Of a DNA stretch of 42,017 nucleotides, positions 7,958 to 34,234 are shown piece by piece. Origin of the DNA: a virus; the IMG/VR virus record IMGVR_UViG_3300034071_002895, positions 1 to 42,017 of that record; one strand, 5' to 3'. Numbering within the stretch: the first letter of the stretch is position 1; the number at the start of each line of letters is the position of its first letter. The notes beneath the pieces were generated by a model, which did no database searches, was not told the DNA's origin, and was given only the letters and a program-made list of their open reading frames with translations. The translations under genes and the position numbers were made by a program.

Positions 7958-8019
7958 AATACCTCCAACTACTGATAGGTTGTTTGACCGCTTTACACAC
8001 TCCGAGATACCCTTCGAAC
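7958..8019. promoter_or_regulatory. Divergent promoter region A
   Basis: This 62-bp spacer separates a minus-strand and a plus-strand transcription unit. It holds CCTCCAACTACTGATAGG at 7962-7979, nearly identical (16 of 18) to a block at 18369-18386. On the minus strand this reads AACCTATCAG...GGAGG, directly leading into the gene start. For the plus strand, TTGACC at 7984-7989 and GATACC at 8006-8011 (16-bp spacer) give a weak sigma-70-like promoter. Its predicted start of transcription falls 1-2 bases before the ATG at 8020. Promoter activity is inferred. Confidence 0.55.
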
Positions 8020-11533: not shown

Positions 11534-12042
11534 AGATCGACGAAGTATTCTACTCTGAGGTGATCAAGCGTGCCGGTTTCAGCCAGGTCGTCTCTCGAGC
11601 AGGGAAGTCGGTGAAGAACTTCGCCAAGCGCCAGGCACACGGGATCACCGGTGCTTATGCCGATCAGGCCGTCAACATCGGGTTGAACCCGGCTGCGGTG
11701 GCTCAGGGGATCACCAGCATCCCTGGCTTGGCAAGAGGGCTGACTTCTGCGCCGAAGGAAACGCTGCGCCACGTGGGCCGTGAGGCCTTCTCTGGCGGCA
11801 AAGCTGGTCTTGCCCTGGGCGTCGGTCTTCCGGTCGCCCTGGCGGCGCCAGACCTCTCCCGCGGGGATGAGAGCGCAACTGGTGGACGCACTATGCGCCA
11901 GAAGCTGGTAGGGTTTGGCTCCAACGTAGTCGGAGGCACCCTTACAGCTGGTGTCCCGATTGTGCCGCAGATCATTGGTGGCGGCGTGATAGACGGCGTC
12001 GCGAACCGCGTTCTTGGCGGCAAAAGGAAAGAGGTACGGTAA
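11530..12042 (+). CDS. Small Gly/Ala-rich hydrophobic protein
   Basis: A 170-residue protein coupled at both ends by overlaps (ATGA with the upstream stop, TAATG with the portal start). It has an N-terminal basic helix (VVSRAGKSVKNFAKRQA), then two low-complexity hydrophobic segments, KAGLALGVGLPVALAAPD (about 97-114) and VVGGTLTAGVPIVPQIIGGGVIDGVANRVLGG (about 133-164). These could associate with or cross a membrane. Similar Ala/Gly segments recur in several other virion-module proteins here. Function unknown; an internal virion protein ejected into the cell envelope is one possibility. Confidence 0.7.
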   Translation: MKIDEVFYSEVIKRAGFSQVVSRAGKSVKNFAKRQAHGITGAYADQAVNIGLNPAAVAQGITSIPGLARGLTSAPKETLRHVGREAFSGGKAGLALGVGLPVALAAPDLSRGDESATGGRTMRQKLVGFGSNVVGGTLTAGVPIVPQIIGGGVIDGVANRVLGGKRKEVR

Positions 12043-13937
12043 TGTTCTTCGGAGGCGCAAGTCCAACAGGCGGTGCTACGCGTCCGATCGGTGGCGGTAA
12101 CGGTGACCGGTCTAGTGTGCTCGGAAGAAAGTACCAGCCGTTCTCGAACCCGTTCTTTGATCAGGCGAGCACCTACACACCCCCGAGCATCAAATCGCTG
12201 TTCGGGTTCTGCCGTTTCTACTACTTGACTCACGGCATCATCAACGCTGTGATCACGAAGGCATCTGAGTATCCGGTAACAGACCTGATCATCCAGCATC
12301 CCGACTCAGGCACTCGAGAGAAGTGGGAGGACCTGCTCCTCAGTTCCCTGAACTACATGGTTCACCAGTACGAGATCAATCTCGACTACTTCGTCTACGG
12401 CAATGCGTTCATCAGCGCGAGCTTTCCTTTCCGGAAGAAGCTGACGTGCGCAGGATGCCGAGCCCAGCACGATGCCTTGGCCGTTCGCCCGAACTGGAGA
12501 TACATCAACTTCAAGTTCTGGCTAGCTTGCCCGAAGTGCGGACAGACGGACTTCGCCACGAGCCACGACGACTACTACCCCAAGTACAGCGAGATCGGTC
12601 TCACGCGTTGGAGTCCAGAGAACGTCCACATCTTCTACAACGAAGCGACGGGGCGAAAGGACTACGGCCTCGATATCAGTCCGGACTTCCGAAGTCAGGT
12701 GATGATGGGTCGCAAAGATCTCATCGCTACGACCCCAGAGATCTTCCTTGAAGCAGTCAAGACGCGACGACAGCTGGTCTTCGATAAGTCCGAAGTCTTT
12801 CACATGAGCAGGCCTGGGCTTTCGAACATGAGTCGCGGCTGGGGAATCCCCCTCATGATGCCGGTCCTGAAGGACGCCTTCTACCTACAGGTTATGCGCA
12901 AGGCCCAGGAGTCCGTACTCCTTACCCACCTTGTTCCGCAGATCTTCTTGTTCCCACAACCTGCCACAAGCGGCGCAGACCCGTTCACGACCATCGAGTT
13001 GTCGAACTGGCGAGATCACATTCGCCGCGAGCTTGCTCGACAGAGAATGGATCCCAGCTACTACGGAATCCTTCCATTCCCTATCGGCCATCAGGTCATT
13101 GGGGAGAACGGAAAGAGCCTCCTGCTCATGCCGGAGATTCAGCAGGCGTCCGAGGTCATGGTTGCCGGTATGGGGTTCCCGGTAGACCTCGTGTTCGGGC
13201 ATGGCACGTACTCGGGATCCAGCATCTCAATGCGCATGCTCGAGAACTTCTTCCTCTCGAACGTTCGCCAGCATAAGCGCCTACTCGCATGGGTGATGCG
13301 CCGCATCGGAAGCTACCTGAACTGGCCGCTTCCAGAAGGAAGCTTCAAGACCTTCCGCATGGCAGACGACATGCAGCGACAGGCCATGATGCTTCAGATG
13401 AATCAGATGGGTAAGATCAGCGATCAGACGCTGCTGTCTTTCACCGATCTTAAGGTTGAAGATGAGAGTCAGCTGATGATTGGTGAGGCCAAGATCAAGG
13501 CAGAGGCTATGCGCCAGAAGTCTCTCCTCGAGGCGACAACGCAGGGAGAGGCCCAGCTGGTCATGGCGAAGTACCAGGCGCGCGCACAGGCCGCGGCGAC
13601 CCAGTCTCAAGCACGAGAGATGGCTCAACCACGAACTCCCTTCGACGAGCTTCAGCAAAGTGGTAGTCGCGCCGCAGGGTGGAGTCTGGACGCCGTCTCG
13701 GCTGCTCTGGCTGAGAAGATCAAGACGCTTCCTCCAGAGCAACAGCAGGCCTACATCAAGCAGCTACAGAGCCAGGTACCCGAAGCAACAGAGATGCTGG
13801 CGGGTCAGGGAATCCAGGTCCCCGATATGCAGATCCCCAGCCTGGCACAGGCACCGGGCGAGGCTGGGCCTGTCCAGGGAGTGGATGGAAGACCGATGCC
13901 CGAGAAGCTACCGCCAAGGCGCGCTGGCGGAGTATGA
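12042..13937 (+). CDS. Portal protein with embedded zinc ribbon
   Basis: This 631-residue protein probably forms the dodecameric ring at the capsid vertex through which DNA is packaged. The order fits phage portals: an N-terminal wing with hydrophobic strands (residues 50-130), a central stem/crown region with WRDHIRRELARQ and YYGILPFPIGHQ, and the GTYSGSSISMRMLENFFLSNVRQHKRLLAWVMRRIGSYL helix set. A Gln-rich helical C-terminus (about 450-631) follows. A zinc-ribbon insert is visible with C136-x2-C139 and C163-x2-C166. The recognition rests on the domain pattern and size. It ends the plus-strand unit and is followed by a strong terminator. Confidence 0.83.
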   Translation: MFFGGASPTGGATRPIGGGNGDRSSVLGRKYQPFSNPFFDQASTYTPPSIKSLFGFCRFYYLTHGIINAVITKASEYPVTDLIIQHPDSGTREKWEDLLLSSLNYMVHQYEINLDYFVYGNAFISASFPFRKKLTCAGCRAQHDALAVRPNWRYINFKFWLACPKCGQTDFATSHDDYYPKYSEIGLTRWSPENVHIFYNEATGRKDYGLDISPDFRSQVMMGRKDLIATTPEIFLEAVKTRRQLVFDKSEVFHMSRPGLSNMSRGWGIPLMMPVLKDAFYLQVMRKAQESVLLTHLVPQIFLFPQPATSGADPFTTIELSNWRDHIRRELARQRMDPSYYGILPFPIGHQVIGENGKSLLLMPEIQQASEVMVAGMGFPVDLVFGHGTYSGSSISMRMLENFFLSNVRQHKRLLAWVMRRIGSYLNWPLPEGSFKTFRMADDMQRQAMMLQMNQMGKISDQTLLSFTDLKVEDESQLMIGEAKIKAEAMRQKSLLEATTQGEAQLVMAKYQARAQAAATQSQAREMAQPRTPFDELQQSGSRAAGWSLDAVSAALAEKIKTLPPEQQQAYIKQLQSQVPEATEMLAGQGIQVPDMQIPSLAQAPGEAGPVQGVDGRPMPEKLPPRRAGGV

Positions 13938-13973: not shown

Positions 13974-15320
13974 CTATTTCACTTCTTGAGCGAAGACGCT
14001 GTCTCGCGTTCGGTAACCGTTACGGACCTTACCCAGAGCAGGTCTGTAATCTGCGAGAAGCCTCTTAATGCCCCTGATGTTTGGGTGCATGCCCAAGATC
14101 TCCTTCAGATGCAGGGACGGGTAGCTCTGAAAGTACTGGAACAGAAACATCCAGGAGATCAGCGGGTCTCCTGTTTGTTCGAGAAGGAGTGGCTTGAATG
14201 CCTTGGCCGCCTCGAACTCCTTTTGCAGAACCGCGGATGCTTCTTCCCATTCCACAAGCGGCATCTCTACGTTTGGTAGATCCGTCGTAACAGAGACCCT
14301 CTTGTTGTGATCGACGATAACGAGCCGGAGATAGTCTGGGCTGAGAACCCCAACGTAGGCCAACAACTTTGCTCGAATCTCCGGCACCGCCACCAAGACC
14401 TTTGCATGCTCCCAGTTCATCCAATGGAGCATCGTTACGGCACCCACTCCTTTGATCTTCTTGTACTCCTCCACAGTCGGCCCGCGTGCCAGATGTGGTA
14501 GTAGCTCAGCTTGTTGGGTCTCGGCCATCTGAGCCAACTGCATGAGGCCGCGCAGATACACCTCAGGTGTCGATCCCGGGTAGAAGGCACCTGCTACCAG
14601 GCGCGAGCCTCCTACACGAGACATCAGTTGATCCACAGCACCGGGGCTGGCGAAACGTATCAGCGCAGCCATGTCTCCGTAACGAAAACCGCCTTTCTTG
14701 TCGCTGATCAGCTGCCTCTCTGCAATCTTGATTGCATGATCTTGGACTGCCTTTCGTAGGCCAGGATTGTGCTTTCCAGACTCGAGAAGGGTCTTGAATG
14801 TGGTCGGATCGGAGGCCCTCTCCAAGCGATGCTTGATGACGCTGCTGACGGAGAAAGCGCCCGCCTCATAAAGCGAGTCGAACTCTCCCATGTCCAACGG
14901 CCCAACCCCAGGTATCAGAAGAGGCGGGAGAACCCAGGTGTACCGATGGTAGTTGCCGTGGTACCGCTGGGACTCGGCCTTGCCGTAGGCGGTCCTCATG
15001 TCCAGAAGAACGAGTGCCTCGTCTCGGTCTCCCATGGACATGAAGAGGTGTGCGGCGGAGATAGGTCTGAGGTAGGCGTCTGACCAGATGAACGGGTTGA
15101 CCTTTGGATTACCGTAGGCCCTGACGATCTCAGACGGCTTGATGCCCGCAAGAACAGCATGCTCGAGCATCAGGGACGACGGTGGATTTAGGCGCAGCTC
15201 TGAAACGATCTGGCCTATCTCATCCGGTGTACAGGCGTGAAGTAGCGCCCGCGTATCGTCCACTGATCGCGAGGTTGTTTGTACGAACTTCCCCAGAACC
15301 CTCAGTAGACGAGTTACCAC
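13974..15320 (-). CDS. Large hypothetical protein, last gene of the MoxR/VWA operon
   Basis: About 448 residues from the GTG at 15320, which overlaps the stop of the VWA gene in GTGGTAA; a GTG at 15350 (458 residues) is the alternative, with no ribosome-binding site. The protein is mainly helical, with short repeated-looking helical units (ALVLLDMRTAYGKAES, LFMSMGDRDEA, IRFASPGAVDQLMSRVGG). This could be an alpha-solenoid. A Leu/Val-rich stretch (AKVLVAVPEIRAKLLAYVGVLSPDYLRLVIVD, about 300-335) sits in the C-terminal half. It resembles no family I can name with confidence. HEAT-like proteins often accompany VWA proteins, as in TROVE proteins, but no TROVE signature is seen. Context suggests a substrate or adaptor of the MoxR/VWA pair. 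Confidence 0.78.
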   Translation of the reverse strand: MVTRLLRVLGKFVQTTSRSVDDTRALLHACTPDEIGQIVSELRLNPPSSLMLEHAVLAGIKPSEIVRAYGNPKVNPFIWSDAYLRPISAAHLFMSMGDRDEALVLLDMRTAYGKAESQRYHGNYHRYTWVLPPLLIPGVGPLDMGEFDSLYEAGAFSVSSVIKHRLERASDPTTFKTLLESGKHNPGLRKAVQDHAIKIAERQLISDKKGGFRYGDMAALIRFASPGAVDQLMSRVGGSRLVAGAFYPGSTPEVYLRGLMQLAQMAETQQAELLPHLARGPTVEEYKKIKGVGAVTMLHWMNWEHAKVLVAVPEIRAKLLAYVGVLSPDYLRLVIVDHNKRVSVTTDLPNVEMPLVEWEEASAVLQKEFEAAKAFKPLLLEQTGDPLISWMFLFQYFQSYPSLHLKEILGMHPNIRGIKRLLADYRPALGKVRNGYRTRDSVFAQEVK

Positions 15321-16504
15321 GACACATCCATGACGAAGCTCCTTCCCCACGGAGGAGGCGTGACGTTATCTGGAATGACCCACAGCATGTCCTTGTACGG
15401 CTTATCCGGATACATGATCATAGCGTCCGTGAGGCATACGGCAGCCTTGGGCTTGTACTCGTCGTAGATCTTGAAGGCGTCGATAGACGATGTGTGCGTG
15501 TGATGGCCAGACTTGAACGCCAGCTTAGTGATCAAGTCCTTCGGCCGCTTTGTTCGGACGACTTCTCGGACATGGCTGTCGAAGGTGACAACCATGGTCT
15601 CCTTCGCACGGACGGCGGCTCGACTTACCTCGCTCGCGAAAATGGACAGAAGAGTAGAGCCTACGCTAGCGGACACATCGATCATGATGAGGAGTCGGGA
15701 TTCGATCCGGTCCTTGGTCGTGGGCAGGACGATGCGAGGCCAGAAGCGCCTGTTCGGCGGTGAGTAGGTCGCAAACCCGTTTTCACCGAGCCTATTCATG
15801 AGTTGGCCCTGCAACAGCCTGTTCCAGGGGACCTTTGGGTTCGTGATCTCCTCAAGCCTCCTAGCCATGCATTTGCTGTAGAGGACTGTTCTGTCCCGGC
15901 CAGTGACCTGCTCTTGGATCATCGCAGCCTTGGCGATCTCCTCGGAGAACACCCTTCTGAACTCCTCTTCGTCGCCGATGAAGTAGCTCCCACCGAATCT
16001 CAAATCCTCGGAGGTGTGCGTCTCTCCTGTACCAGTGCCCGTACGAACAGTCTTGCCTGCAACCAGCTCGTCGTAGATCTGCTCAGCTGTCATGTCTACA
16101 GCCCACGCCGGAGGGATGACTCCATCGGCCGGTGGGTTCCACACCTTTCCTCCCTTGGAGAGAATGGCACAGGCTTCGCGCACGGCCACGACATCTACTG
16201 CGATGTTCCAGAGCTTTCGAATCCGATCACCAGTACGCGCGGGGTGATTGAAGTAGATGTGGATCCACTCATGCAACAAATCAAACACCCGCGCGTCATG
16301 TGTTATCCCGGCCATCCACTTCGGGGAATACCAGACGGTCCGGCCGTCCGTTTGCAAAGTTTCAATCGAGCTGTCTTCCAACAACACTACGGCCTCCCCC
16401 AAGTAGGAGAGGCCGCAGAGAGGGAAGAACAGCATCAGATCTTGGAGAGCCTTCTTGACATACCGAAGGACCTCTTTGTCTCGGATACTGTTCTCTTTGA
16501 TCAT
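15314..16504 (-). CDS. DUF2201-like metallopeptidase/VWA-domain protein
   Basis: A 396-residue protein with two parts. The N-terminal part carries HEWIH-x4-H (H78, E79, H82, H87), the zinc-binding signature of a putative metallopeptidase. The C-terminal part is a von Willebrand A-like domain: IMIDVSASVGS supplies the metal-ion-dependent adhesion DxSxS residues (D276, S278, S280), and the chain ends with a short strand set (MLWVIPDN). This order matches the DUF2201 family, commonly encoded next to MoxR-type ATPases. It starts in an ATGA overlap with the small upstream gene. By analogy the VWA protein acts with the ATPase as a chaperone or complex-remodelling partner. Whether it is a true protease is unproven. 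Confidence 0.88.
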   Translation of the reverse strand: MIKENSIRDKEVLRYVKKALQDLMLFFPLCGLSYLGEAVVLLEDSSIETLQTDGRTVWYSPKWMAGITHDARVFDLLHEWIHIYFNHPARTGDRIRKLWNIAVDVVAVREACAILSKGGKVWNPPADGVIPPAWAVDMTAEQIYDELVAGKTVRTGTGTGETHTSEDLRFGGSYFIGDEEEFRRVFSEEIAKAAMIQEQVTGRDRTVLYSKCMARRLEEITNPKVPWNRLLQGQLMNRLGENGFATYSPPNRRFWPRIVLPTTKDRIESRLLIMIDVSASVGSTLLSIFASEVSRAAVRAKETMVVTFDSHVREVVRTKRPKDLITKLAFKSGHHTHTSSIDAFKIYDEYKPKAAVCLTDAMIMYPDKPYKDMLWVIPDNVTPPPWGRSFVMDVSW

Positions 16505-16710
16505 GCTTTACTCAATACGAGGTAGGTGATTATCGCCTCGTTGGCGGCGTCGGTGTCGCAGACGTCAGGACCGGCTAGAGAATCCAGTACCAGGCGCTCT
16601 GCGTGTTCCTGCGACTTCGCGGTGACGTCGAAGCGGACGATCACTGCGAATACGTCAGGAGCATCTATCGAGGGTTCCATTGATTGCAGCTTGTTCTCCT
16701 GATCACTCAT
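16501..16710 (-). CDS. Small hypothetical protein between VWA and MoxR genes
   Basis: A 69-residue acidic protein joined by ATGA overlaps to both the MoxR ATPase gene and the VWA gene, so it is almost certainly co-translated with them. The core FAVIVRFDVTAKSQEHAERLVLDSLAG looks like a strand followed by a helix, as in small ferredoxin-like (beta-alpha-beta) domains. The family is unknown. Its location suggests an accessory subunit of the MoxR/VWA complex. Confidence 0.72.
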   Translation of the reverse strand: MSDQENKLQSMEPSIDAPDVFAVIVRFDVTAKSQEHAERLVLDSLAGPDVCDTDAANEAIITYLVLSKA

Positions 16711-17834
16711 TTCTTGGACGCCTTCGTTTTATGGTCTCCCGTGCTGATCAGTTCAGCCATCAACTCGTCTGCCACCTCTGGGAACACCTCTGCGATCTTG
16801 GTTCTCACTGTTGACTTCAGCTGGACGATCAACGCAATCTGCATCTCGGGGTCGACGCTTGTGATCCAATCGAGTAGCCCCGTGTACGTGGGCTTGATGG
16901 GGTGCGTGTTGAGCCACGTGGCCAAGGCGAAGATCGCGGCGTACTGGCGCATACGCCTCTCTGATGGGTCACCAGAGTTGTCGAACTTCTTTGCCCCGGT
17001 CAGGATCCCTTCCACGTCAATCGAACTGAGAATCTCGTGCCAGGCCCAGAAGTCGTTGGCGACGTGATCACCGAGCTTCAGGGCGACGATTGTCTTCCAG
17101 TTGTTGTTTGTCCTGTTGCCGAAGATATCTTCGCGCGGGTTTGGGAACTGAAAGAAGTGCTTCGACGCCTCGGTCCATCCGCGAGGCGTTGGGAATCGGG
17201 GAACACCTTCCTTGTGTGCATGCAGGTGCTCAGGCTTGAACTGGAGGTATCCGACGATCGAGGGATGTACGGTCCCGGTGCTGATTCCGTGCTGGCTGTA
17301 GCTCAGGACGTCGGGAATCATGGAGATGACCGTGATGCGTGTCCTGAGGCTCTCGCAGATCTCGTTTGCCAGGATGTCGTCCGACACCCCGTTCCCCGCG
17401 CAAGCAATGATGGTGCGCGGGTTCAGCGACTTGTCTCGGAACGTCCTGTTCGCCGTCACCGACAAGAGGGCGCCTTGGACTACGTCCGGAGACTTGTCCA
17501 TGTCATCGAAGAGCAAGAACACCGGCTTCAGGCAGGCCTGTGTGGCGTACTTGTTCAGGATCCACTCAGTGAACAAGCCACCACCGCCATCCTTCTTCTC
17601 CGATGGGATGCCCAGGATGTCGCTTGCATCCGTACTCTCTCCGCAGTTGATCGGAAGGAACGGGAGGTTGAGTCGCTGTGCGGCTGCTCGAGCGATTTCA
17701 GTCTTGCCGATACCAGGCGGTCCGACGAGCATCGGGACGCTCAGGGCTTGGTGATCGTTCTTCTTGATCGCCTCAGCCTGCATGGTGAGCTCGCGGTTGA
17801 ACAGGAACTCAGCTTGCTTGTGCGTGTACTTCAT
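16707..17834 (-). CDS. MoxR-type AAA+ ATPase
   Basis: A 375-residue AAA+ ATPase. Walker A is GPPGIGKT at 38-45. Walker B is FLLFDDMDK at 105-113, with Asp at 110 where most MoxR proteins have Glu. Sensor 1 is ACAGN with N147, and an arginine in SLRTRI could be the arginine finger. The AAA+ core is followed by a helical lid and a C-terminal domain rich in Trp and Asp. MoxR ATPases couple ATP hydrolysis to assembly, folding or metal loading of target complexes together with a VWA-domain partner, which is encoded two genes downstream here. ATGA overlaps at both ends show tight coupling. The target in the phage cycle is unknown. Confidence 0.9.
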   Translation of the reverse strand: MKYTHKQAEFLFNRELTMQAEAIKKNDHQALSVPMLVGPPGIGKTEIARAAAQRLNLPFLPINCGESTDASDILGIPSEKKDGGGGLFTEWILNKYATQACLKPVFLLFDDMDKSPDVVQGALLSVTANRTFRDKSLNPRTIIACAGNGVSDDILANEICESLRTRITVISMIPDVLSYSQHGISTGTVHPSIVGYLQFKPEHLHAHKEGVPRFPTPRGWTEASKHFFQFPNPREDIFGNRTNNNWKTIVALKLGDHVANDFWAWHEILSSIDVEGILTGAKKFDNSGDPSERRMRQYAAIFALATWLNTHPIKPTYTGLLDWITSVDPEMQIALIVQLKSTVRTKIAEVFPEVADELMAELISTGDHKTKASKK

Positions 17835-18363: not shown

Positions 18364-18438
18364 TTTCGCCTCCAAGAACTGATAGGGGTTATTCCCCTTG
18401 CGTTGACCCGTATTCTGCTGGGCGAGTAGACTCTCCGG
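18364..18438. promoter_or_regulatory. Divergent promoter region B
   Basis: The spacer between the MoxR/VWA operon and the RNA polymerase gene holds CCTCCAAGAACTGATAGG at 18369-18386, matching region A at 16 of 18 bases. On the minus strand this gives AACCCCTATCAG with a GGAGG ribosome-binding site 5 bases on. For the plus strand, TTGACC at 18403-18408 and TAGACT at 18427-18432 (18-bp spacer) form a sigma-70-like promoter whose predicted start falls on the GTG at 18439. A short AGGGG/CCCCT hairpin lies inside (around 18384-18398). Confidence 0.58.
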
Positions 18439-21400
18439 GTGATTACATCAGACCCCCGCGAACAGTTCGAAGAGCTGAAGAACCAGCTCTTGAGTCAAAT
18501 CAGCCAGACCTTCCCAGTCAAAGACAGGGCAGGGCGCTACGAGGTGCGCGTAAAAGATCTTAAGGTTGATGACCATCTAGGAGTCGACGACATCCAAGGC
18601 CAGTTCAAGGCCAAGATGGAAGGGCGCTCTTGGGCAGCCCCAGTCACGGGAACGATCGAGATCGCGGACAACGAGACTGGCAAGGTCTTGGTGTCCCGAA
18701 AGAACTCTGCGATCGCGAAGATCCCCAAGCTGACCCGGCACTACAGCTACATCATCGGCGGGTCCGAGAAGTTCATCGCCAACCAGTGGCGACTTCGCCC
18801 CGGTGTCTACGTCAAGGCTACGGAGAAGCCCGGTGAGTTCGAGGCTCAGTTCCAGCTCGCAAAGGGCAGGAGCTTCGATATCCAGACCGGTGATGCGGGC
18901 GAACTTCACATGAAGCTCGGCTCCCGCAAGATCCCGCTTTACTCGGTGCTCTCTTCTATGGGGATCAGCGACGACCGGATGAAGGCCGCGTGGGGTGCCG
19001 ATGCATATGCAGCTTCCAAGAAGAAGTCTGCGGTCGACAAGGACCTCCGATCGCTTTACCAGACGTGGAGGAAGGAGGCTCTTCCGGCAACAGGAGATGC
19101 AGCCTTGGCTACCAGGGCGCTGTTTGAAGGAACCAAGATCGATGAGAGCGTCGCTCATGCAAACCTGGGCATCAAGTCCGAGCGCGTAGATGCTGAGATC
19201 ATGTTCGCTGCATCGAAGAAGCTTCTTGATGTGTCGGCGAAGCGTCAGGATCCGGATCCCATCGACAGCCTTCGATACAAGGAGTTCTGGGAGGCAAAGG
19301 ACCAGTTCATCGATAGGATCTCGCGTGCTCAGCCAGAGATTACTCAGCGCATCCAGAAGGCGCTGGCAAAGCCGCTCGTACAGAAGAAGATGATGAGCGG
19401 TGATTCCAGCATGATCCGTGACGTGTTTATGCCGGACCTCCTTCAACGTCCGCTCAATCACGTCTTCACGACCTCCCTCGCGTCCAACGGCAAGCAGACG
19501 AATCCGTTGTCGATGTTGGCGGATCGCTCGATGGTTACCATCACAGGTCCTGGCGGTATCCAGAACCCACACGCCCTCTCGAAGTCGAATACGTCCCTTG
19601 ATCCCAGCCACCTCGGCTTCCTCGATCCCGTATTCACCCCGGAGTCCAATGCAGGCGTGAACACGCATCTTGCATTTGGTGTGGTGATCAAAGACAGGAA
19701 GCCCTATGTGCGGATGTACAACGTACGCACAGGTCATATGGAACAGGTCGATGCAGCTGTTGCTGCCATCAGCAACATCGTGTTGCCCGATCAGGTGAAG
19801 TGGGAAGGTGGAAAGCCGAAGCCTCTCAACAACGCCGTGCGCATGTCGGATTCTCGCGGCCAGATGCGGGACGACATTGCGTTCTCCAAGGCTGACTACG
19901 TTCTCCCGAATGCGACGCAGGTGTTCGCTGTAGAGACCAACCTTGTTCCATTCATGCAGAATGACAGCGCCGGTCGATCGACGATGTCTGCTCGACACAT
20001 GGCCCAGGCAATCTCTGTAATCGGCAGAGAGGCTCCGCTGGTTCAGGTGGAGGCGGGTAAAGGCAAGAGCTTCGAGACCATTCTGGGATCCGGATTCCTG
20101 GCTCACCACGCCAAGAAGGACGGGACAGTCACGTCTGTCGGTCCCACTGGAGTTGTGCTGGCCTCAAAGGATGGCGGTCACGAAACGGTGCACCTCTACA
20201 ACCACTACCCGACCAACGATCCGAAGGGCCAACTGCACAGCACAGCACGCGTAGCCGTGGGCGATAAGATCACTGCTGGACAGGCAGTGGCGGACAACAA
20301 CTACACCAAGGACGGGGCTCTGGCTCTTGGCGCGAATCTTCGCGTGGCGTACCTGGCCAATGGCTCAAACCACGAAGACGGTATCGTTATCTCGAGGAGC
20401 GCAGCCAACCGCCTGGCTTCGGAGCATCTCTACAAGCCCTCGATGCTTGTTACGGATACGCACGTCATCGGCAAGAAGGAGTTCTTGATTGGAAAGCCCG
20501 GACTGTACAGCCCTGAGCGCGTCGCCAAGATCGGCGATAACGGGATTGTGCGTCCAGGTACGAAGGTCAAGCCTGGGGATCCGCTAGTACTAGCGCTTGG
20601 CGAAATCATGCTGCCAGGTACTGCGGATCTCAACGCCAAGTACAAGATCGGCAAGCGCCTCCGAAACAAGTACCAGAACTCGTCGATGATCTGGGACGGT
20701 GACTACGAGGCCGAGGTTGTGCGTGCAGATCGCATCGGCAAGAACGTTGTCGTTCATCTCAAGACTACGGAACCTGCTCAGATCGGCTCCAAGATCTCTA
20801 CGCGACACAGCGCAAAGGGTATCGTCACCCAGATCATGGATGACAACGAGATGCCCCATGATGCAAAGGGCAAACCCGTCGAGATGTTGATCAACCCGGT
20901 CAGCGTCCCCGGTCGCATGAATCCGGGCCAGCTGCTTGAAACAGCTGCGGGCAAGATTGCAGAGAAGACCGGCAAGCCGTATCTGGTGAAGAACTTCCAA
21001 GGTGGCGTCGACTACCTGAAGAAGGTCCAAGGTGAACTGAAGCAGCACGGCCTTTCGGACACGGACACACTCTACGACCCCGCCACGGGCCGCAAGCTCG
21101 GGGACGTCATGGTCGGTCCTCACTACGCGTTTCAACTCGAACATCAGATCGACAAGAAGACCCACGTTCGTTCTGGTGGTATCGACTTGTCCCAGTTCGA
21201 CGCGCCCAAGATCCACTACGACTCGGACACACGAGTTCCCAGGGGTGGTGGTCATGGCGGTGCTCAGAGCCTCGGAAGCCTCGGTATCTACGCAGCGCTT
21301 GCCGCGGGTCTGAAGGACAACCTTCGGGAGATGCAGACCCTGAAGTCTGATCAGCCCCAAGCTCGAGAGGTCTGGAACGCCCTCGCCAATGGCGAGCGTA

Positions 21401-24400
21401 TCCCGGCCCCAAAGATCCCGTTCGTGTTCAAGAAGTTCGAGGCAATGCTGACAGGCATGGGCGTCAACGTGGACAAGACCGGGGCAGAGATTCGCCTGAT
21501 GCCACGTAGCGACGCCGAGACCCGCCAGCTCAGTCGTGGAGAACTGACACGGCCTACACGAAGCATTCGTGGAAAGGATGACAAGCCAGAACCCGGAGGA
21601 CTCTTTGATTCAGTGATCACGGGAGGTCCTGCTGGTCAACACTGGGGTCACATTGAGTTGGTTGAGGCGATGCCCAACCCCGTGTACTCACGCGCCATCG
21701 CACACACGCTCGGCGTGAAGGAGACAGACATCCCCGCAATCATCGAGGGCAAGATGACTCTGCCTGGCGGAGGTATTGGCGGGAACGGGATCAGGCAGGC
21801 GCTCGCTAAGATCGATGTGACGAAGGAGATGAAGACAACGCTCGACGCTCTCAAGGACCCGAAGGTCCATGGGTCTGCGCTCGACAAACTCCATTTCCGA
21901 TACCGTGCATTGAAGAACGTTGCGGACGTCGGCAAGAAGCTCGACGAGGCATGGACAATCAAAGCTGTGCCGGTTCTACCGCCTGTATTCCGGCCACAAG
22001 CCACGATGCCGGACGGAACGGTCAAGAACAACCCGCTCAACAGCCTCTACAAGCGCCTAGGCATGGTCAACGAGTCCTTGCGCAAGGGAGAGGGGAAGGT
22101 CCCCTACAACAGCACGCTGGACGCCCGCGCTGGCCTGTACCAGGAACTCTCGAACCTCTTCGGGACAACGCCCAAGGGCAAGAAGGCTCTTGAGCTGGAT
22201 ATGCGCGGCACAAAGGAGGATCCCGACAAGACGCTCCCTGGCATCATCCATATGATCTCGGGCGAGCAGCCGAAGGATGGGTTCTTCCAGGACAAGATGG
22301 TCGCGAAGAAGCAGGACTACACATCCAGAGCAACCATCGTTGTTGATCCCAACCTCAGCGTGGACGAGATTGGTCTGCCCAAGAAGATCGCTCTCGAGCT
22401 TCTTCGTCCCATGATTGCTCGCCGTCTCATGCAAGCGCGCATCAAGCCAGACGAGGCCCAGCGTATGATCAGCCGCAAAGACCCTGTGGCTGTAAAGGCT
22501 CTCGAGCAAGAGTTGCTCTACCGCCCGTTGCTGATGAAACGCGACCCGGTGCTTCATCAGTACGGCCTTGTCGCACAGCGTGCACGCCTTACCAATGATG
22601 CTGCGATCAAGGTGAGCCCTCTCATCCTTCCTCCTCTTGGAGGAGACATCGACGGTGACACCGTTTCCCTGATGGTCCCGCTGACCCATGAGGCCGTCGA
22701 GGAAGCGAAGCGCATTCTGCCATCGCAGAGGACGCTATCTGATTCGTCTGGAGACGTTCTGTTCTCTCCATCGAACGAGAGCGCCCTGAGCCTCTACCGC
22801 ATGTCGATCCCGCGCGGAAAGCACAGCGAGGTCTTCAAGAACAAGGATGCTTGCGAGACGGCCTTCCGAGACAACAGGTTGAACCTGAATCAGGAAGTTC
22901 ATGTCACGGGCGTAGGCTCCACGACGCTTGGCCGCATGCGCATTGCTGAGGTGGTTCCAGAGAAGTACCGCCATGACATCCTTACGAAGATCGACAAACC
23001 CTTCGATCGCAAGTACCAGGAGACCGTGCTGAAGGAAGTCGCCAAGACGATGCCGAAGCACTTCGTCGAAACGGTGGACGGAATGAGCCGCCTCGGGTTC
23101 AAGATGGCTTATGACTCGGGCCACACCGTTGCACTCAAAGACATTGAGCCACTCAGGGGTCCACGAGACAAGATCATCAAGGACACGCAGAAGCACGTCG
23201 ATCACCTGAACGCGACAGGCCAGTCAGGAAAGGTCACAGCCGCCTGGCTTTCGGCTACCAAGGATATCCACGACACCTACAACAGGCTGCTGAAGGATCA
23301 TCCGACGAATGTCTCGGACATGGCCCCTGCCCCACTCGGGTCAGGCATCAAGGCAAAGAAGGAGCAGTTCCAGGGCCTTCTCATGGCGCCCATGTTGGTT
23401 GAGGACCACCTCGGGGCTCCTTCTCTGATTCCTGTCACCAAGAGCTTCGCAGAAGGTGTCGACATCGGCGGCTACTTCCTACAGGCCGCTGGTGCTCGCC
23501 GTGGCGTCATCCAGAAGACGGACAGCGTTCGCGAGCCCGGATACATGTCCAAGCTCCTAGTTCAGGCCAACATTGACCAGCCGATCACAGGAGCTGATTG
23601 CGGTACTGAACAGGGCCTTCTCATGCCTGTCGGTCACAAAGACGTCGTTGATCGCCATCTTGCACACTCAATCAAGATTGGAGATCACGTAGTCTCAGCT
23701 GGCACCGTGGTCACGCCGGAACTCATGACGCGGGCGAAGGAGGCGAGGATCGATCAGGTATCTGTTCGAAGCCCGTTGAAGTGCCGCATGCCGCAGGGAG
23801 TGTGCTCGAAGTGCATGGGTATCCATCCCAATGGAGCGGAGTACCACATGGGCGAGAACGTCGGCATCATTGCCGCCCAGGCGCTTGGTGAGCGCGCAGC
23901 ACAGCTCATGCTCAAGCAGACACACGGTGGCGGTATCGTCTCGACATCTGGTCATTCAGTGAGCGACTTCGGCGACGTGCAGAAGCTTTTCGATGCAGCC
24001 AAGCGCGGTCGTGAAGATGCGGCGCTCGCACCAACGGCTACAAAGATCACCGGAGTTCATCAAAGCCGTGGAGGCGACTGGGTGATCCAGATGGGCAGGT
24101 CACAGGTGAAGTCGCGCCAGAAGCCGTTGGAGCACGTGAAGCCAGGCCTTGAAGTCAAGAAGGGCGATACCCTGACGGAAGGTGATCCGAACATCCACGA
24201 CCTGCTGGCTACCAAAGGACTTGATGCAGTCCAGTCCCACATGGTCGATAAGATCGGCGGAATCTACGGCAGGGAGGGCGTTCTTCGTAGGCACGTCGAA
24301 CTTGCCGTGAAGAACGCTACGGGCGTCGTGCGGATCTCTAACGCTGGAGACCACGACAGCATGATCCGCGGGGACTACGTGCAGAAGAGCGTAGTCGACG

Positions 24401-24669
24401 AGATCAACCGTAACGCACTGAAGGGTAAGGAACACATTCAGTACGACACGACCCTGTTCCCGATCAAGACGATCCCACTTCGTAGGCAGGAGGACTGGAT
24501 GGCCCGTCTGCAAGGCGAGCGCATTGGACAGAGCCTCATGACCGGAATCCAACATGGTCAACGAACAAACGTCGTGGGCAGGCACCCGATCCCGTCGCTG
24601 GTCATTGGTACAACGGTAGGCGCACCATCAACGGCACGTCCGTTCGGAGAACGAAATGGCACGCACTAA
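18439..24669 (+). CDS. Fused beta/beta-prime multisubunit-type RNA polymerase
   Basis: A 2076-residue single chain carrying both large RNA polymerase subunits. Beta half (1 to about 1022): GPGGIQN near 370, F-x-PVFTPESNAG near 394-407, NDSAGRSTMSARHMAQA from 508, NHEDGIVIS with E646/D647, active-site lysines K785 and K793 around RHSAKG, THVRSGG near 908-913, and LREMQTLKSD near 963-972. Beta-prime half: GLFDS and GHIEL near 1054-1073, LPPVFRP near 1179-1185, KKQDYTSRA near 1291-1298, catalytic GGDIDGD with D1403, D1405 and D1407, bridge helix/trigger loop about 1675-1713, and a zinc site C1721, C1782, C1789, C1792. The N-terminal beta-prime zinc ribbon is absent. The start is GTG, with no ribosome-binding site. 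It should transcribe phage genes; no alpha, omega or sigma gene is visible. Confidence 0.97.
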   Translation: MITSDPREQFEELKNQLLSQISQTFPVKDRAGRYEVRVKDLKVDDHLGVDDIQGQFKAKMEGRSWAAPVTGTIEIADNETGKVLVSRKNSAIAKIPKLTRHYSYIIGGSEKFIANQWRLRPGVYVKATEKPGEFEAQFQLAKGRSFDIQTGDAGELHMKLGSRKIPLYSVLSSMGISDDRMKAAWGADAYAASKKKSAVDKDLRSLYQTWRKEALPATGDAALATRALFEGTKIDESVAHANLGIKSERVDAEIMFAASKKLLDVSAKRQDPDPIDSLRYKEFWEAKDQFIDRISRAQPEITQRIQKALAKPLVQKKMMSGDSSMIRDVFMPDLLQRPLNHVFTTSLASNGKQTNPLSMLADRSMVTITGPGGIQNPHALSKSNTSLDPSHLGFLDPVFTPESNAGVNTHLAFGVVIKDRKPYVRMYNVRTGHMEQVDAAVAAISNIVLPDQVKWEGGKPKPLNNAVRMSDSRGQMRDDIAFSKADYVLPNATQVFAVETNLVPFMQNDSAGRSTMSARHMAQAISVIGREAPLVQVEAGKGKSFETILGSGFLAHHAKKDGTVTSVGPTGVVLASKDGGHETVHLYNHYPTNDPKGQLHSTARVAVGDKITAGQAVADNNYTKDGALALGANLRVAYLANGSNHEDGIVISRSAANRLASEHLYKPSMLVTDTHVIGKKEFLIGKPGLYSPERVAKIGDNGIVRPGTKVKPGDPLVLALGEIMLPGTADLNAKYKIGKRLRNKYQNSSMIWDGDYEAEVVRADRIGKNVVVHLKTTEPAQIGSKISTRHSAKGIVTQIMDDNEMPHDAKGKPVEMLINPVSVPGRMNPGQLLETAAGKIAEKTGKPYLVKNFQGGVDYLKKVQGELKQHGLSDTDTLYDPATGRKLGDVMVGPHYAFQLEHQIDKKTHVRSGGIDLSQFDAPKIHYDSDTRVPRGGGHGGAQSLGSLGIYAALAAGLKDNLREMQTLKSDQPQAREVWNALANGERIPAPKIPFVFKKFEAMLTGMGVNVDKTGAEIRLMPRSDAETRQLSRGELTRPTRSIRGKDDKPEPGGLFDSVITGGPAGQHWGHIELVEAMPNPVYSRAIAHTLGVKETDIPAIIEGKMTLPGGGIGGNGIRQALAKIDVTKEMKTTLDALKDPKVHGSALDKLHFRYRALKNVADVGKKLDEAWTIKAVPVLPPVFRPQATMPDGTVKNNPLNSLYKRLGMVNESLRKGEGKVPYNSTLDARAGLYQELSNLFGTTPKGKKALELDMRGTKEDPDKTLPGIIHMISGEQPKDGFFQDKMVAKKQDYTSRATIVVDPNLSVDEIGLPKKIALELLRPMIARRLMQARIKPDEAQRMISRKDPVAVKALEQELLYRPLLMKRDPVLHQYGLVAQRARLTNDAAIKVSPLILPPLGGDIDGDTVSLMVPLTHEAVEEAKRILPSQRTLSDSSGDVLFSPSNESALSLYRMSIPRGKHSEVFKNKDACETAFRDNRLNLNQEVHVTGVGSTTLGRMRIAEVVPEKYRHDILTKIDKPFDRKYQETVLKEVAKTMPKHFVETVDGMSRLGFKMAYDSGHTVALKDIEPLRGPRDKIIKDTQKHVDHLNATGQSGKVTAAWLSATKDIHDTYNRLLKDHPTNVSDMAPAPLGSGIKAKKEQFQGLLMAPMLVEDHLGAPSLIPVTKSFAEGVDIGGYFLQAAGARRGVIQKTDSVREPGYMSKLLVQANIDQPITGADCGTEQGLLMPVGHKDVVDRHLAHSIKIGDHVVSAGTVVTPELMTRAKEARIDQVSVRSPLKCRMPQGVCSKCMGIHPNGAEYHMGENVGIIAAQALGERAAQLMLKQTHGGGIVSTSGHSVSDFGDVQKLFDAAKRGREDAALAPTATKITGVHQSRGGDWVIQMGRSQVKSRQKPLEHVKPGLEVKKGDTLTEGDPNIHDLLATKGLDAVQSHMVDKIGGIYGREGVLRRHVELAVKNATGVVRISNAGDHDSMIRGDYVQKSVVDEINRNALKGKEHIQYDTTLFPIKTIPLRRQEDWMARLQGERIGQSLMTGIQHGQRTNVVGRHPIPSLVIGTTVGAPSTARPFGERNGTH

Positions 24670-25780
24670 CGGAGGGCCGTCTCACAATCGGCATTCTCCT
24701 TTTCGCTGCGAGGAGGGAACGATCACCGATGTCAACAGGAACACCTACACGGTTACCGTCGAAACCCGTCATTCTGAGAAGACGGTCGAAGACGTCCAGG
24801 TACTTGCGCCCTATCACCACTTCAGCAACGGGGAAGGGATTCATCATCTCCCGGAGATCGGTGCCCTTTGCTGGATTGCCTGGCCAAACGACAATACTCC
24901 AGCGTTTGTACTTGGTTATGCTGGTGCGGCTTCTGTGCTTGGCAGTTCCGATGGAACTCCGGCTCGGTCGACTTCAACCGCGGAGGGGTCGAACACCGAC
25001 GTAAGCTTTCGATCCAGGCGGCCTAAGCTGGACCCCGGCGATATCGCCATCACGACTCGGGACGAGAACTTCTTGGTACTCAAGCGTGGTGGCGTTATCC
25101 AGATCGGCGCAACACCGATCTGTCAGCGTATCTACCTGCCCATTCTCAACTACATTAAGGACTTCGCCGAGAACTACGAGATGCACACTCTCGGCGGAGA
25201 TGTCTCTTGGACTGTAGCTCGAGCTGAAAACGACCCCTCAGGCGACGCCCCGTCATCCTACGTCTTCCACATGAACGAGTTCGCACAGGATGCTAAGGCC
25301 ACCGTGCGGATCCAGCACATGCCTCTCGGGGACGGAGATAAGGCAGCCTGGCAGGTTCAGGTCGCTCCAAAGGGTATCGATCGCGACGACGGGTCTGTCA
25401 CGGACGAGAAGTATTCGCTACTGATCACTACCTCCGGAAAGAAAGCAGAGATCATTGGTGCCGACAGAACTATTCACGTGAAAGGAAACGATACGCTCAC
25501 TGTGGACGGAAGCCGCTCCACAAGCATCAGCGGAGACGACACGTTGTCGGTCGATGGGTCAATCGATGCAACAGCCTCTGGCACTCACGTGGTCGGCGGA
25601 TCCGTTGTGAAGCTGGCGAGCAGCAACGCCAACAACCCCGGAGTGAAAGGCACGGCGCTCGTTCAGTTCCTCAGCTCGGCCATCTACATCGTCGATCCAA
25701 CCACAAACACAGCAACCCTCGCCCCTCCCCTAGTCGCGACTCTCCAGTCGCTGTTGTCCCAGAAAGTCTTTCTGGAGTAA
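24656..25780 (+). CDS. Baseplate/tail spike protein, gpV/gp5-like
   Basis: A 374-residue protein whose start overlaps the polymerase gene by 14 bases. Residues about 17-90 look like the OB-fold of gpV/gp5 spikes: EGTITDVNRNTYTVTVETR, then HLPEIGALCWIAWPNDNTPAFVLGY. The C-terminal part shows short beta-strand repeats (IHVKGNDTLTVDGSRSTSISGDDTLSVDG, about 280-308) typical of a trimeric beta-helix needle. The product probably forms the central tail tip that pierces the cell envelope. No lysozyme domain is seen. The fold call is from pattern only. Confidence 0.75.
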   Translation: MARTNGGPSHNRHSPFRCEEGTITDVNRNTYTVTVETRHSEKTVEDVQVLAPYHHFSNGEGIHHLPEIGALCWIAWPNDNTPAFVLGYAGAASVLGSSDGTPARSTSTAEGSNTDVSFRSRRPKLDPGDIAITTRDENFLVLKRGGVIQIGATPICQRIYLPILNYIKDFAENYEMHTLGGDVSWTVARAENDPSGDAPSSYVFHMNEFAQDAKATVRIQHMPLGDGDKAAWQVQVAPKGIDRDDGSVTDEKYSLLITTSGKKAEIIGADRTIHVKGNDTLTVDGSRSTSISGDDTLSVDGSIDATASGTHVVGGSVVKLASSNANNPGVKGTALVQFLSSAIYIVDPTTNTATLAPPLVATLQSLLSQKVFLE

Positions 25781-31860: not shown

Positions 31861-33786
31861 TCACACGTCCAGGTCCCGTGCGTAGGTTGCGTTGTCCTCA
31901 ATCCACGATCGCCTGTTTTCGGCAGACTCGCCCATGAAGAGGCCGAAGTATGCCTCTGCTTTCGCAGCGTCCGCGATCGTAACCTGCTTCATCGTACGGA
32001 ACTCTGGGTTCATCGTGGTCTGCCAAAGGTCCTGAGCGTTCATCTCGCCGAGTCCCTTGTACCGCGTCACACGAGATCCCTTGTTCTGCTCGGGGCTCAA
32101 GGTGAGCCTGAACTCTTCGAGCTGCCGTTCATCCAACAAGTACTTCACCGCCTTACGGCCTGGAACGTGTACGCCATATAGCGGAGGCAGCGCGATGTAC
32201 AGGTACCCGCCGAAGATCAGCTGGGGCATGCACCTGTAGAAGAACGTCAGAAGAAGCGTTCGAATGTGCGCTCCATCTACGTCAGCGTCGGTCAGCAAGA
32301 TCACCTTGTGGTACCGAAGCTTGTCTCCATGAAACGTGTTGGCTTGAACGATTCCACAGCCAAGCGCTGTGATGAGTGTTCCGATCTCCTTGTTCTCGAG
32401 GATCCTCTCAGCACCCTCGTTCTCCACGTTCAAGACCTTCCCGCGAAGAGGCAGGATTGCCTGGAACCTACGATCACGGCCGCCCTTCGCGGAGCCGCCA
32501 GCGCTCTCGCCCTCCACGATGAAGAGTTCGCACTCCTCTGCGCGCTTCGACTGGCAGTCCGCCAACTTGCCAGGAAGGCTGGATGGATCCAGCCACTCCT
32601 TTCTCTGAACACCCTCTCGGGCTTTGCGGGCAGCCTCGCGTGCCCTTGCATTGATGATCGCGCGCTCGGCGACCTTGCGTGCAGCGCCGGGATTCTCTTT
32701 GAACCACCACGCGACCTGATCTGCGAACAGAGCCTCCACTACTGTCTTGGCCTCGGGCGTGACCAACTTGTCCTTGGTCTGGCTCGAGAAACTCACGTTC
32801 GCGATACGAAGATTGACGATCGCGACGATGCCTTCTCGAATGTCGCCGCCCGTGAGGCCGTCCGCGGGAAGGTCCTTGAGCAGATTGTGCTCCTTCGCGT
32901 AGGCCGTAACGATTCGTGTGAGGCCTGCCTTGAATCCGGTGAGGTGGGTTCCTCCATCAGGGTTGTAGGTGTTGTTGGCGTAGCAACGAACATCCTCGTC
33001 ATGGTTATCAGTCCAGCAGAACGCCATGGAACATGTGCTGGTATCGCTGAAGTACATGATCGGGAGTAGGGTCTTTTTCTTTCCCACGACCTCGGTCAGG
33101 TAGTCCTTGATTCCTCCCTTGTAGATGTACGTCTCGGACCAGGCCGCCTTGCCGCGGAAGTCACTGAATACGATCTCGAGACCGGGGTTCAGGAAAGCAA
33201 GCTCCTGAAGCCGCTCCCCAACTCTCTTGCGGTCGTACTCGATGACATCCTTGAAGATGGTCAGATCTCGCTTCCAGTAGATGGATGTCCCGTTCTTGGG
33301 CGAGGCATCTCCACGGGATACCGGACCCACAGGAATCCCTCGCATGCAACGGAACCCCCACTCGTAACCGTCCCGCCACACCGTTGCATCCATCTCGCTG
33401 CTGACTGCATTCACGGCCGAAACGCCCACGCCGTGCAGACCGGCCGACTTGGCGTAGCTGTCCTGATCGAACTTTCCACCGGCATGCAGATCACAGAGGA
33501 CCAACTGAAGCGCGGACACGCCCTCTTCGTGCATACCAACTGGGATGCCACGGCCGTTGTCTGTCACACGGCACCCGCCGTCCTCTTCCAAGCTGACCTG
33601 GATCTGGGTGCAGTACCCGGCCAAGTGCTCATCCACCGAGTTGTCGACAACTTCCTTGATGCAGTGGTGGAGCGCGTCTCCGCTACTCGGATCGCCGAGA
33701 TACATCCCTGGTCGTTCTCGAACGGCCTCGAGCCCCTTGAGTTTCCTGATCGCACTGGCTCCGTATTGCTCACTCTTTTGTGCCAT
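31861..33786 (-). CDS. gyrB: DNA gyrase/topoisomerase type IIA subunit B
   Basis: A 641-residue complete GyrB/ParE-type subunit, which would supply the ATPase half of a type IIA topoisomerase. The GHKL ATPase has E45 and N49 in KEVVDNSVDEH, DNGRGIP at 76-82 and GLHGVGVSAVNA at 116-127, with the QTKDKL loop lysine at 338. The TOPRIM domain has EGESAGG (E425), the acidic DADVDG (D500, D502, D504) and RYKGLGEMN. Length matches short GyrB proteins (about 640 residues) without the extra insert of E. coli GyrB. No gyrA/parC is in the window. The start has AGAGGAGGCC, and AACTATAAG (33812-33804), a relative of the promoter-like motif, lies just upstream. It overlaps the preceding gene by 17 bases. 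Confidence 0.95.
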   Translation of the reverse strand: MAQKSEQYGASAIRKLKGLEAVRERPGMYLGDPSSGDALHHCIKEVVDNSVDEHLAGYCTQIQVSLEEDGGCRVTDNGRGIPVGMHEEGVSALQLVLCDLHAGGKFDQDSYAKSAGLHGVGVSAVNAVSSEMDATVWRDGYEWGFRCMRGIPVGPVSRGDASPKNGTSIYWKRDLTIFKDVIEYDRKRVGERLQELAFLNPGLEIVFSDFRGKAAWSETYIYKGGIKDYLTEVVGKKKTLLPIMYFSDTSTCSMAFCWTDNHDEDVRCYANNTYNPDGGTHLTGFKAGLTRIVTAYAKEHNLLKDLPADGLTGGDIREGIVAIVNLRIANVSFSSQTKDKLVTPEAKTVVEALFADQVAWWFKENPGAARKVAERAIINARAREAARKAREGVQRKEWLDPSSLPGKLADCQSKRAEECELFIVEGESAGGSAKGGRDRRFQAILPLRGKVLNVENEGAERILENKEIGTLITALGCGIVQANTFHGDKLRYHKVILLTDADVDGAHIRTLLLTFFYRCMPQLIFGGYLYIALPPLYGVHVPGRKAVKYLLDERQLEEFRLTLSPEQNKGSRVTRYKGLGEMNAQDLWQTTMNPEFRTMKQVTIADAAKAEAYFGLFMGESAENRRSWIEDNATYARDLDV

Positions 33787-34234
33787 GAAGGCCTCCTCTG
33801 TCGCTTATAGTTGCTAGCAGCGCCTTTACGCGTAGCTGGTTACCACACATGTCCTGGGGCCTGATCTTGCGCAGACCCTGGAGGTTTAAGAGATCTTGGG
33901 CCACGGATAGTATGTGGTCCTTACAGCTGCGCACGTTGTACCCAGCCTTCTCGTATCGATTCAGAAGAAGAAGCATGGGGTGCCACGGCGCCGGATCTGA
34001 TGTCGCCCTCGCCATCTTCAGAAAAGACCTCGCATCGAGCCGGAAGAGCTGTCGCTCCCAGTGGCGAACAGTCGTCTCGTCTAGGGCTGGGGCTCGGCAG
34101 GCATCCCAATAGAGACTCACCAGATGCGTGGGCCCTGCTTGCTCTGTGACAGCGCCCAGATAGAGGCCTTCCAGTATCGCCATCCTGCGTGATAGGTCGT
34201 GTATTTCGGCCTGTAGTGCGTAGTGATCTTTCAC
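33770..34234 (-). CDS. Hypothetical helical protein upstream of gyrB
   Basis: About 154 residues from a GTG at 34234, which has AAAGGGAA upstream; an ATG at 34270 (12 codons longer) is possible. Residues upstream of that look like a shadow of the divergent plus-strand gene. The protein is mainly helical, with a coiled-coil-like start (ALQAEIHDLSRRMAILEGLYLGAV) and a basic, Cys-containing C-terminus (NVRSCKDHILSVAQDLLNLQGLRKI, then MCGNQLRVKALLATISDRGG). It overlaps the gyrB start, so the two are probably co-translated. The family is unknown. Confidence 0.68.
   Translation of the reverse strand: MKDHYALQAEIHDLSRRMAILEGLYLGAVTEQAGPTHLVSLYWDACRAPALDETTVRHWERQLFRLDARSFLKMARATSDPAPWHPMLLLLNRYEKAGYNVRSCKDHILSVAQDLLNLQGLRKIRPQDMCGNQLRVKALLATISDRGGLHGTKE

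Follow-up and report, generated by a model that had tools for sequence, protein, structure and literature searches.

Fused rpoBC genes of Helicobacter and Wolbachia encode the β and β′ subunits of RNA polymerase (RNAP), in this order, in one open reading frame (ORF), giving cellular enzymes of ~2840-2890 amino acids (aa; model lengths) that work with α and ω. Phage-encoded multisubunit-type RNAPs without α or ω are found in phiKZ/AR9-type jumbo phages, where they consist of several polypeptides, usually occur as two enzymes per phage and use no sigma factor (PMC7598289, PMC7824862). Jumbo phages are described as having either their own multisubunit RNAP without a sigma factor or a sigma factor without an RNAP (PMC7824862). 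YonO, crAss-like gp66 and P23-45 gp64/gp96 are also phage-encoded and have two barrels in one chain, with little similarity beyond DxDxD (PMC5467207, PMC10770324); literature searches for a phage β-β′ fusion returned only the crAss-like, YonO and P23-45 types. In this study, we analyzed the complete IMG/VR virus record IMGVR_UViG_3300034071_002895 (42,017 bases; hereafter the window), which is a fragment of a larger phage genome. A gene at 18439-24669 on its + strand encodes an RNAP that, unlike the phiKZ/AR9-type enzymes, is contained in one frame and, unlike YonO and the other one-chain phage enzymes, has full bacterial-type β and β′. Together with a diverged sigma factor in relatives and a shared promoter-like signature, this RNAP suggests a self-contained viral transcription system. 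The window's RNAP family has both an RNAP and a sigma factor, unlike the jumbo phages in the literature reached.

Sequence and structure of the polymerase chain

The frame runs unbroken through 2076 codons, as a previous reading of the DNA without database searches (the sequence-only reading) had reported, and begins with GTG. It is not an assembly error, because the same single frame recurs on separate contigs, in independent relatives at 73-82% identity as well as in many that are more distant. RpoB models match residues ~255-1012 (E 5e-88) and RpoC models match residues 1112-2015 of the same product (E 3e-122), bearing out the expectation that both halves would match polymerase models. Pfam Rpb2_6, Rpb1_2 and Rpb1_5 and the β and β′ chains in PDB match as well, and the identity to bacterial subunits is ~25-30%. 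The NCBIfam models of fused rpoBC also match the chain, far below their cut-offs (398.5 bits vs 5372 and 345.7 vs 4632). The β part spans residues ~1-1011 (18439-21471, according to the RpoB models and alignment with the E. coli β C-terminus) and leads through only a short joint into the β′ part (residues ~1012-2076, 21472-24666, according to the RpoC models and the junction alignment). The sequence-only reading was right to set this one-chain phage enzyme apart from the split phiKZ-type RNAPs. Its comparison with Helicobacter holds for the gene layout but no further, since α and ω are retained in those cells.

Alignment with the E. coli subunits places β residues R678, E813, D814, K1065, K1073 and R1106 at R513, E646, D647, K785, K793 and R826 of the phage chain (the active-site lysines K785 and K793 lie at 20791-20817). 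The catalytic aspartates D460, D462 and D464 of β′ correspond to residues 1403, 1405 and 1407 in the DIDGD motif (residues 1403-1407, 22645-22659). The bridge helix (residues 1672-1712, 23452-23574) is identified from an AlphaFold model and the alignment, and the alignment also locates the second zinc site (C1721, C1782, C1789 and C1792; 23599-23814) and the trigger loop (23872-23988), whose H1829 aligns with E. coli β′ His936. The sequence-only reading had claimed every core motif for this chain, which is correct for DIDGD, the β residues and the second zinc site. However, the aligned family members have lost the first (N-terminal) β′ zinc domain (C70-C88 in E. coli), and the catalytic loop of the window's clade is GGDIDGD instead of the cellular form NADFDGD, which occurs in some other family members. 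The claim that the enzyme is much shorter than that of E. coli depends partly on the reference chosen: E. coli subunits carry large lineage-specific inserts, and the Gram-positive β′ subunits among the PDB chain matches have ~1200 aa. The gene thus appears to encode a catalytically complete bacterial-type RNAP core in one chain, which would probably be enzymatically active. A core that is expressible from one gene, without α, ω and the first β′ zinc domain, allows tests of the roles of those parts.

Some public phage records are bacterial contaminants carrying rpoBC, and the many high-scoring records of this kind served only as cellular references here. That the window gene was likewise joined from bacterial rpoB and rpoC during assembly, or is an inactive decaying copy, is nevertheless hardly conceivable, given the intact frame in both close and distant relatives, the conserved active site and the phage genes on both sides.

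The AlphaFold model of residues 500-1699, built from 46 aligned rows, has a mean pLDDT of 88.1 and a pTM of 0.80 and spans both barrels, and its top Foldseek matches are bacterial β′ chains. The model ends before the trigger loop and thus supports, but does not prove, the formation of one joint active site by both barrels. Helices are predicted at both places where sigma docks on bacterial RNAP. The putative flap-tip helix (residues 726-741, 20614-20661), the usual sigma4 contact, is placed by alignment and lies in a low-confidence loop of the model, and the β′ clamp helices (residues 1199-1241, 22033-22161), the usual sigma2 contact, are placed by the model and the alignment.

Phylogeny and history of the fusion

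Scans retrieved relatives with 54-82% identity down to ~25%. The close relatives are on contigs of 150-177 kb and the wider ones on contigs of up to ~200 kb; those that are near-complete measure ~150-195 kb. Their RNAPs have one, two or three chains. All close relatives are single-chain, and the one-chain layout has ~1985-2170 aa. The two-chain layout, which includes the isolates Arash and D69, is cut after the catalytic barrel (~1525 + 610 aa). In the seven three-chain members checked, chain 1 is more than a simple β, because it ends with a β′ N-terminal segment (GGLFD, then TGG and a W-H motif), which is the scar of a β-β′ fusion.

A maximum-likelihood tree (bootstrap/SH-aLRT) recovers the RNAP family with 100/100 support. 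The three-chain forms (100/99) are located beside the two-chain forms within one clade (100/100), and the single-chain L067 is at the base of this split-chain clade (98/97) on a long branch, which leaves its placement unsure. The RNAPs of Cobetia Carin-5 and Yersinia GN1 aligned badly and were excluded from the tree. Because the three-chain forms keep a β′ piece on the β end, and in view of the tree, we infer one ancestral β-β′ fusion followed by a cut after the barrel and then a second cut, both at non-native points. Read in this way, the fusion is no special feature of this phage but is ancestral to a large family, some members of which have re-split the enzyme. Within the family, the same enzyme occurs naturally in one, two or three chains, and the fusion scar in this series reveals the order of events. 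It is separate from the four bacterial and four archaeal references in the tree, which are too few for a conclusion on the age of RNAP acquisition.

Salmonella phage Arash (OQ632216) and Vibrio phages D69, D148 and D181 have RNAPs of the same family, homologous along the whole chain. They share the β-β′N fusion and the zinc-domain deletion and encode sigma factors, but they are only ~28-30% identical to the window chain and have two genes split after the catalytic barrel. The D181 RNAP is further interrupted near a homing endonuclease, and D148 is alike by its coordinates. Literature searches on the isolates Arash, D69 and D181 found no paper. The mReC RNAP of Caudovirales (Weinheimer & Aylward 2020, PMC7481178) likewise has β and β′ that are recognizable by cellular models and forms a branch apart from Bacteria. 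It was described as β and β′ subunits with NADxDGD and a large terminase (TerL) of PF03237, whereas the window has one chain, GGDIDGD and a GpA-type TerL of PF05876 (29252-31132, + strand; profile matches). Because the mReC study filtered for NADxDGD, it would have excluded the window's clade; some other family members may be among the mReC contigs. The capsid family PF07068, also a marker of mReC phages, was found in 0 of 22 records, in a search without a positive control that is thus uninformative.

In L076, L077, L078 and L079, a different type of phage RNAP is encoded by separate genes, β′ first and β second, and L076-L078 are sister to the single-chain RNAP family in the tree, on a long branch. 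In Cobetia phage Carin-5 (L206, 1541-8366), which belongs to another, unrelated-looking lineage, separate β and β′ genes come immediately after an annotated sigma factor. The genome-contig scan also gave a short contig in a Woesearchaeota bin (L121) with a piece of the phage RNAP family, which is probably a mis-binned phage contig.

Several of these RNAP genes carry inserts. Inserts of ~500 aa interrupt the catalytic DxDGD loop itself in L058 (~14120-15700) and, at the same place, in L089, L090, L097 and L102. The L058 insert has a LAGLIDADG match (5.7e-8) and weak intein-splicing matches, and the inserts were read as inteins in the polymerase active site. In L089, N replaces the third Asp as the residue preceding the insert. 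A second intein-like insert is located at the β GDKLS motif, near the active-site lysines (L097 residues 786-947, L095 600-937 and L074 ~771-921), and some inserts at this site are mini-inteins without an endonuclease match. The β part is interrupted in Vibrio phage D181 (L209, 2515-3465) and in L065 (11515-12445) by an intron or a gene split. The L065 break is at profile position 541/542, and the D181 break is at a similar place, with the annotated homing endonuclease between the pieces.

Partner subunits

An α subunit (PF01193) was detected in 0 of 30 records, including the window, itself a fragment (13/14 cellular controls positive), and ω (PF01192) in 0 of 23 records (14/14 cellular controls positive). 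Canonical Sigma70_r2 is present in all split-RNAP records and in the single-chain members G013 and G018, and was not found in the window's clade. The idea that fused-RNAP phages are sigma-less was overturned by a search with phage sigmas, which retrieved a second, diverged sigma-like family of ~225-280 aa. Its profile has members in 26 of the 30 records searched, i.e., in 26 of the family's 27 records apart from the window; it missed the window fragment, G016 and two RNAP-phage records outside the family. The profile matches solved sigma factors with E 4e-18 (positions 27-235 of 243), and profile-profile comparison with the canonical phage sigmas gives a probability of 97.4%. Pfam Sigma70_r3 is found in 19/24 members, and regions 2 and 4 are weak. 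The fold matches of the sigma-like protein are sigma factors, with a low global TM because the domain placement differs. The sequence-only reading had noted that no α, ω or sigma gene is visible. This extends to the family for α and ω but not for sigma, whose absence from the window says little because the window is a 42-kb virus fragment.

Since no α or ω gene was found in the family, the phage core could borrow α, ω or sigma from the host. We regard this as very unlikely, because contacts with host α and sigma would hardly persist at only ~25-30% identity to bacterial subunits; moreover, a phage sigma-like gene is available. We propose that the β-β′ fusion probably replaces the need for the α dimer that normally joins the two subunits, and that the phage RNAP would bind the diverged sigma70-type factor encoded by the phage (in relatives, outside the 42-kb fragment).

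Promoters and proposed transcription pathway

The RNAP gene is preceded on the + strand by a host-type (sigma70-like) promoter, with a -35 element TTGACC (18403-18408), an 18-nt spacer and a -10 element TAGACT (18427-18432). Its last base is separated from the GTG start by 6 nt (5-6 nt across the clade). TTGACC-N18-TAGACT and the GTG are kept in 15/15 records of the window's clade (TAAACT in one), a few of which are near-identical, and the flanking DNA has diverged. The window, G001 and G002 contain one match each, with 0 to 0.1 expected. Because the promoter abuts the GTG with no ribosome-binding site (RBS) between them, the RNAP mRNA is probably leaderless. A leaderless promoter form with TTGAC and TAGxxT is common in Actinobacteria.

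The promoter bears on the possibility that virions carry the RNAP and inject it to transcribe the first genes, as in crAss-like and phiKZ-type phages. The gene is located between those for a portal-like protein (12042-13937, + strand; weak match to phrog_2833, E 3.6e-5) and a gp5-like baseplate hub protein (24656-25780, + strand; profile matches), and it follows the portal region in Arash and D69. This location favors packaging, as does the finding of one multisubunit RNAP gene per record. However, a host-type promoter directly upstream in all 15 records accords with intracellular expression by host RNAP, and neither a tape-measure nor any other virion protein is fused to the chain. Virion delivery therefore seems unlikely to us, and we favor early synthesis, in which the host RNAP with its main sigma would make the leaderless RNAP mRNA from TTGACC-N18-TAGACT.

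All 7-mers upstream of RBS-like sites were ranked without bias, which yielded a second motif, CTATCAG/CTATAAG. CTATCAG, or the same word shifted by one base, takes first or second place in G001, G002, G004 and G007; G004 and G007 were examined after CTATCAG had been chosen. The motif is located ~20 nt before the start codon, and in both G001 and G002 the sigma-like gene lies behind it. The window has three CTATCAG/CTATAAG sites, all on the - strand before leftward genes. CTATCAG at 18379-18385, which is divergent from the RNAP gene, is followed by GGAGG and a small ORF, and is backed by conservation in the upstream alignment and family-wide enrichment. CTATCAG at 7972-7978 is followed by GGAGG and a start codon (motif ranking and context), and CTATAAG at 33804-33810 by GGAGG and the start of a gyrase-B-like gene (motif ranking), which encodes a DNA gyrase B/topoisomerase II large subunit (31861-33786, - strand; profile matches). 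A promoter search based on crude gene calls was dropped owing to antisense-ORF noise.

We infer that the phage RNAP pairs with the diverged sigma and that the motif belongs to this polymerase: the holoenzyme would read CTATCAG/CTATAAG as phage promoters, including that of the sigma gene itself in some relatives. Alternatively, the sigma-like protein would direct the host RNAP to CTATCAG, and the phage RNAP would use another factor or none. Phage sigmas usually recruit the host core (PMC7824862), and the residues of E. coli β′ that contact sigma2 (R275, E295 and R297) are not conserved in the phage chain. Nevertheless, the sigma-like gene co-occurs with the RNAP family in 26/27 records and is absent from the two outside RNAP-phage records, and recruitment of the host core appears improbable.

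Besides the lack of conservation at these contact residues, several observations weigh against the proposed holoenzyme pathway. If CTATCAG sites require sigma and one of them drives the sigma gene, another source is needed for the first sigma molecules. The CTATCAG count in the window alone is not above chance, and other words lead the ranking in the distant members G011 (GGGATAAG) and G022 (GTATAAGTAA). The window fragment has no sigma-like gene, and G016 (L093), at 171 kb, is the only other family record in which the protein was not found. The AlphaFold piece also lacks the trigger loop and the β N-terminus. On balance, we consider it likely, though well short of certain, that a one-chain core is made early by the host and then acts as a phage holoenzyme on its own promoters.

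None of the searchable papers was found to describe a one-chain bacterial-type core together with a near-universal diverged sigma and a shared motif, which does not prove that no such description exists. The broader view, for which we see about even chances, is that of a nearly self-sufficient two-polypeptide transcription machine with its own promoter code, which would have arisen from one ancient β-β′ fusion and been re-cut by some descendants.

Other genes in the window

The window also encodes a primase, a DnaB-type helicase and a capsid-like protein. A VWA/DUF2201 metallopeptidase-like protein is located beside an AAA ATPase at 15314-17834 on the - strand, and the pair resembles MoxR-VWA modules.

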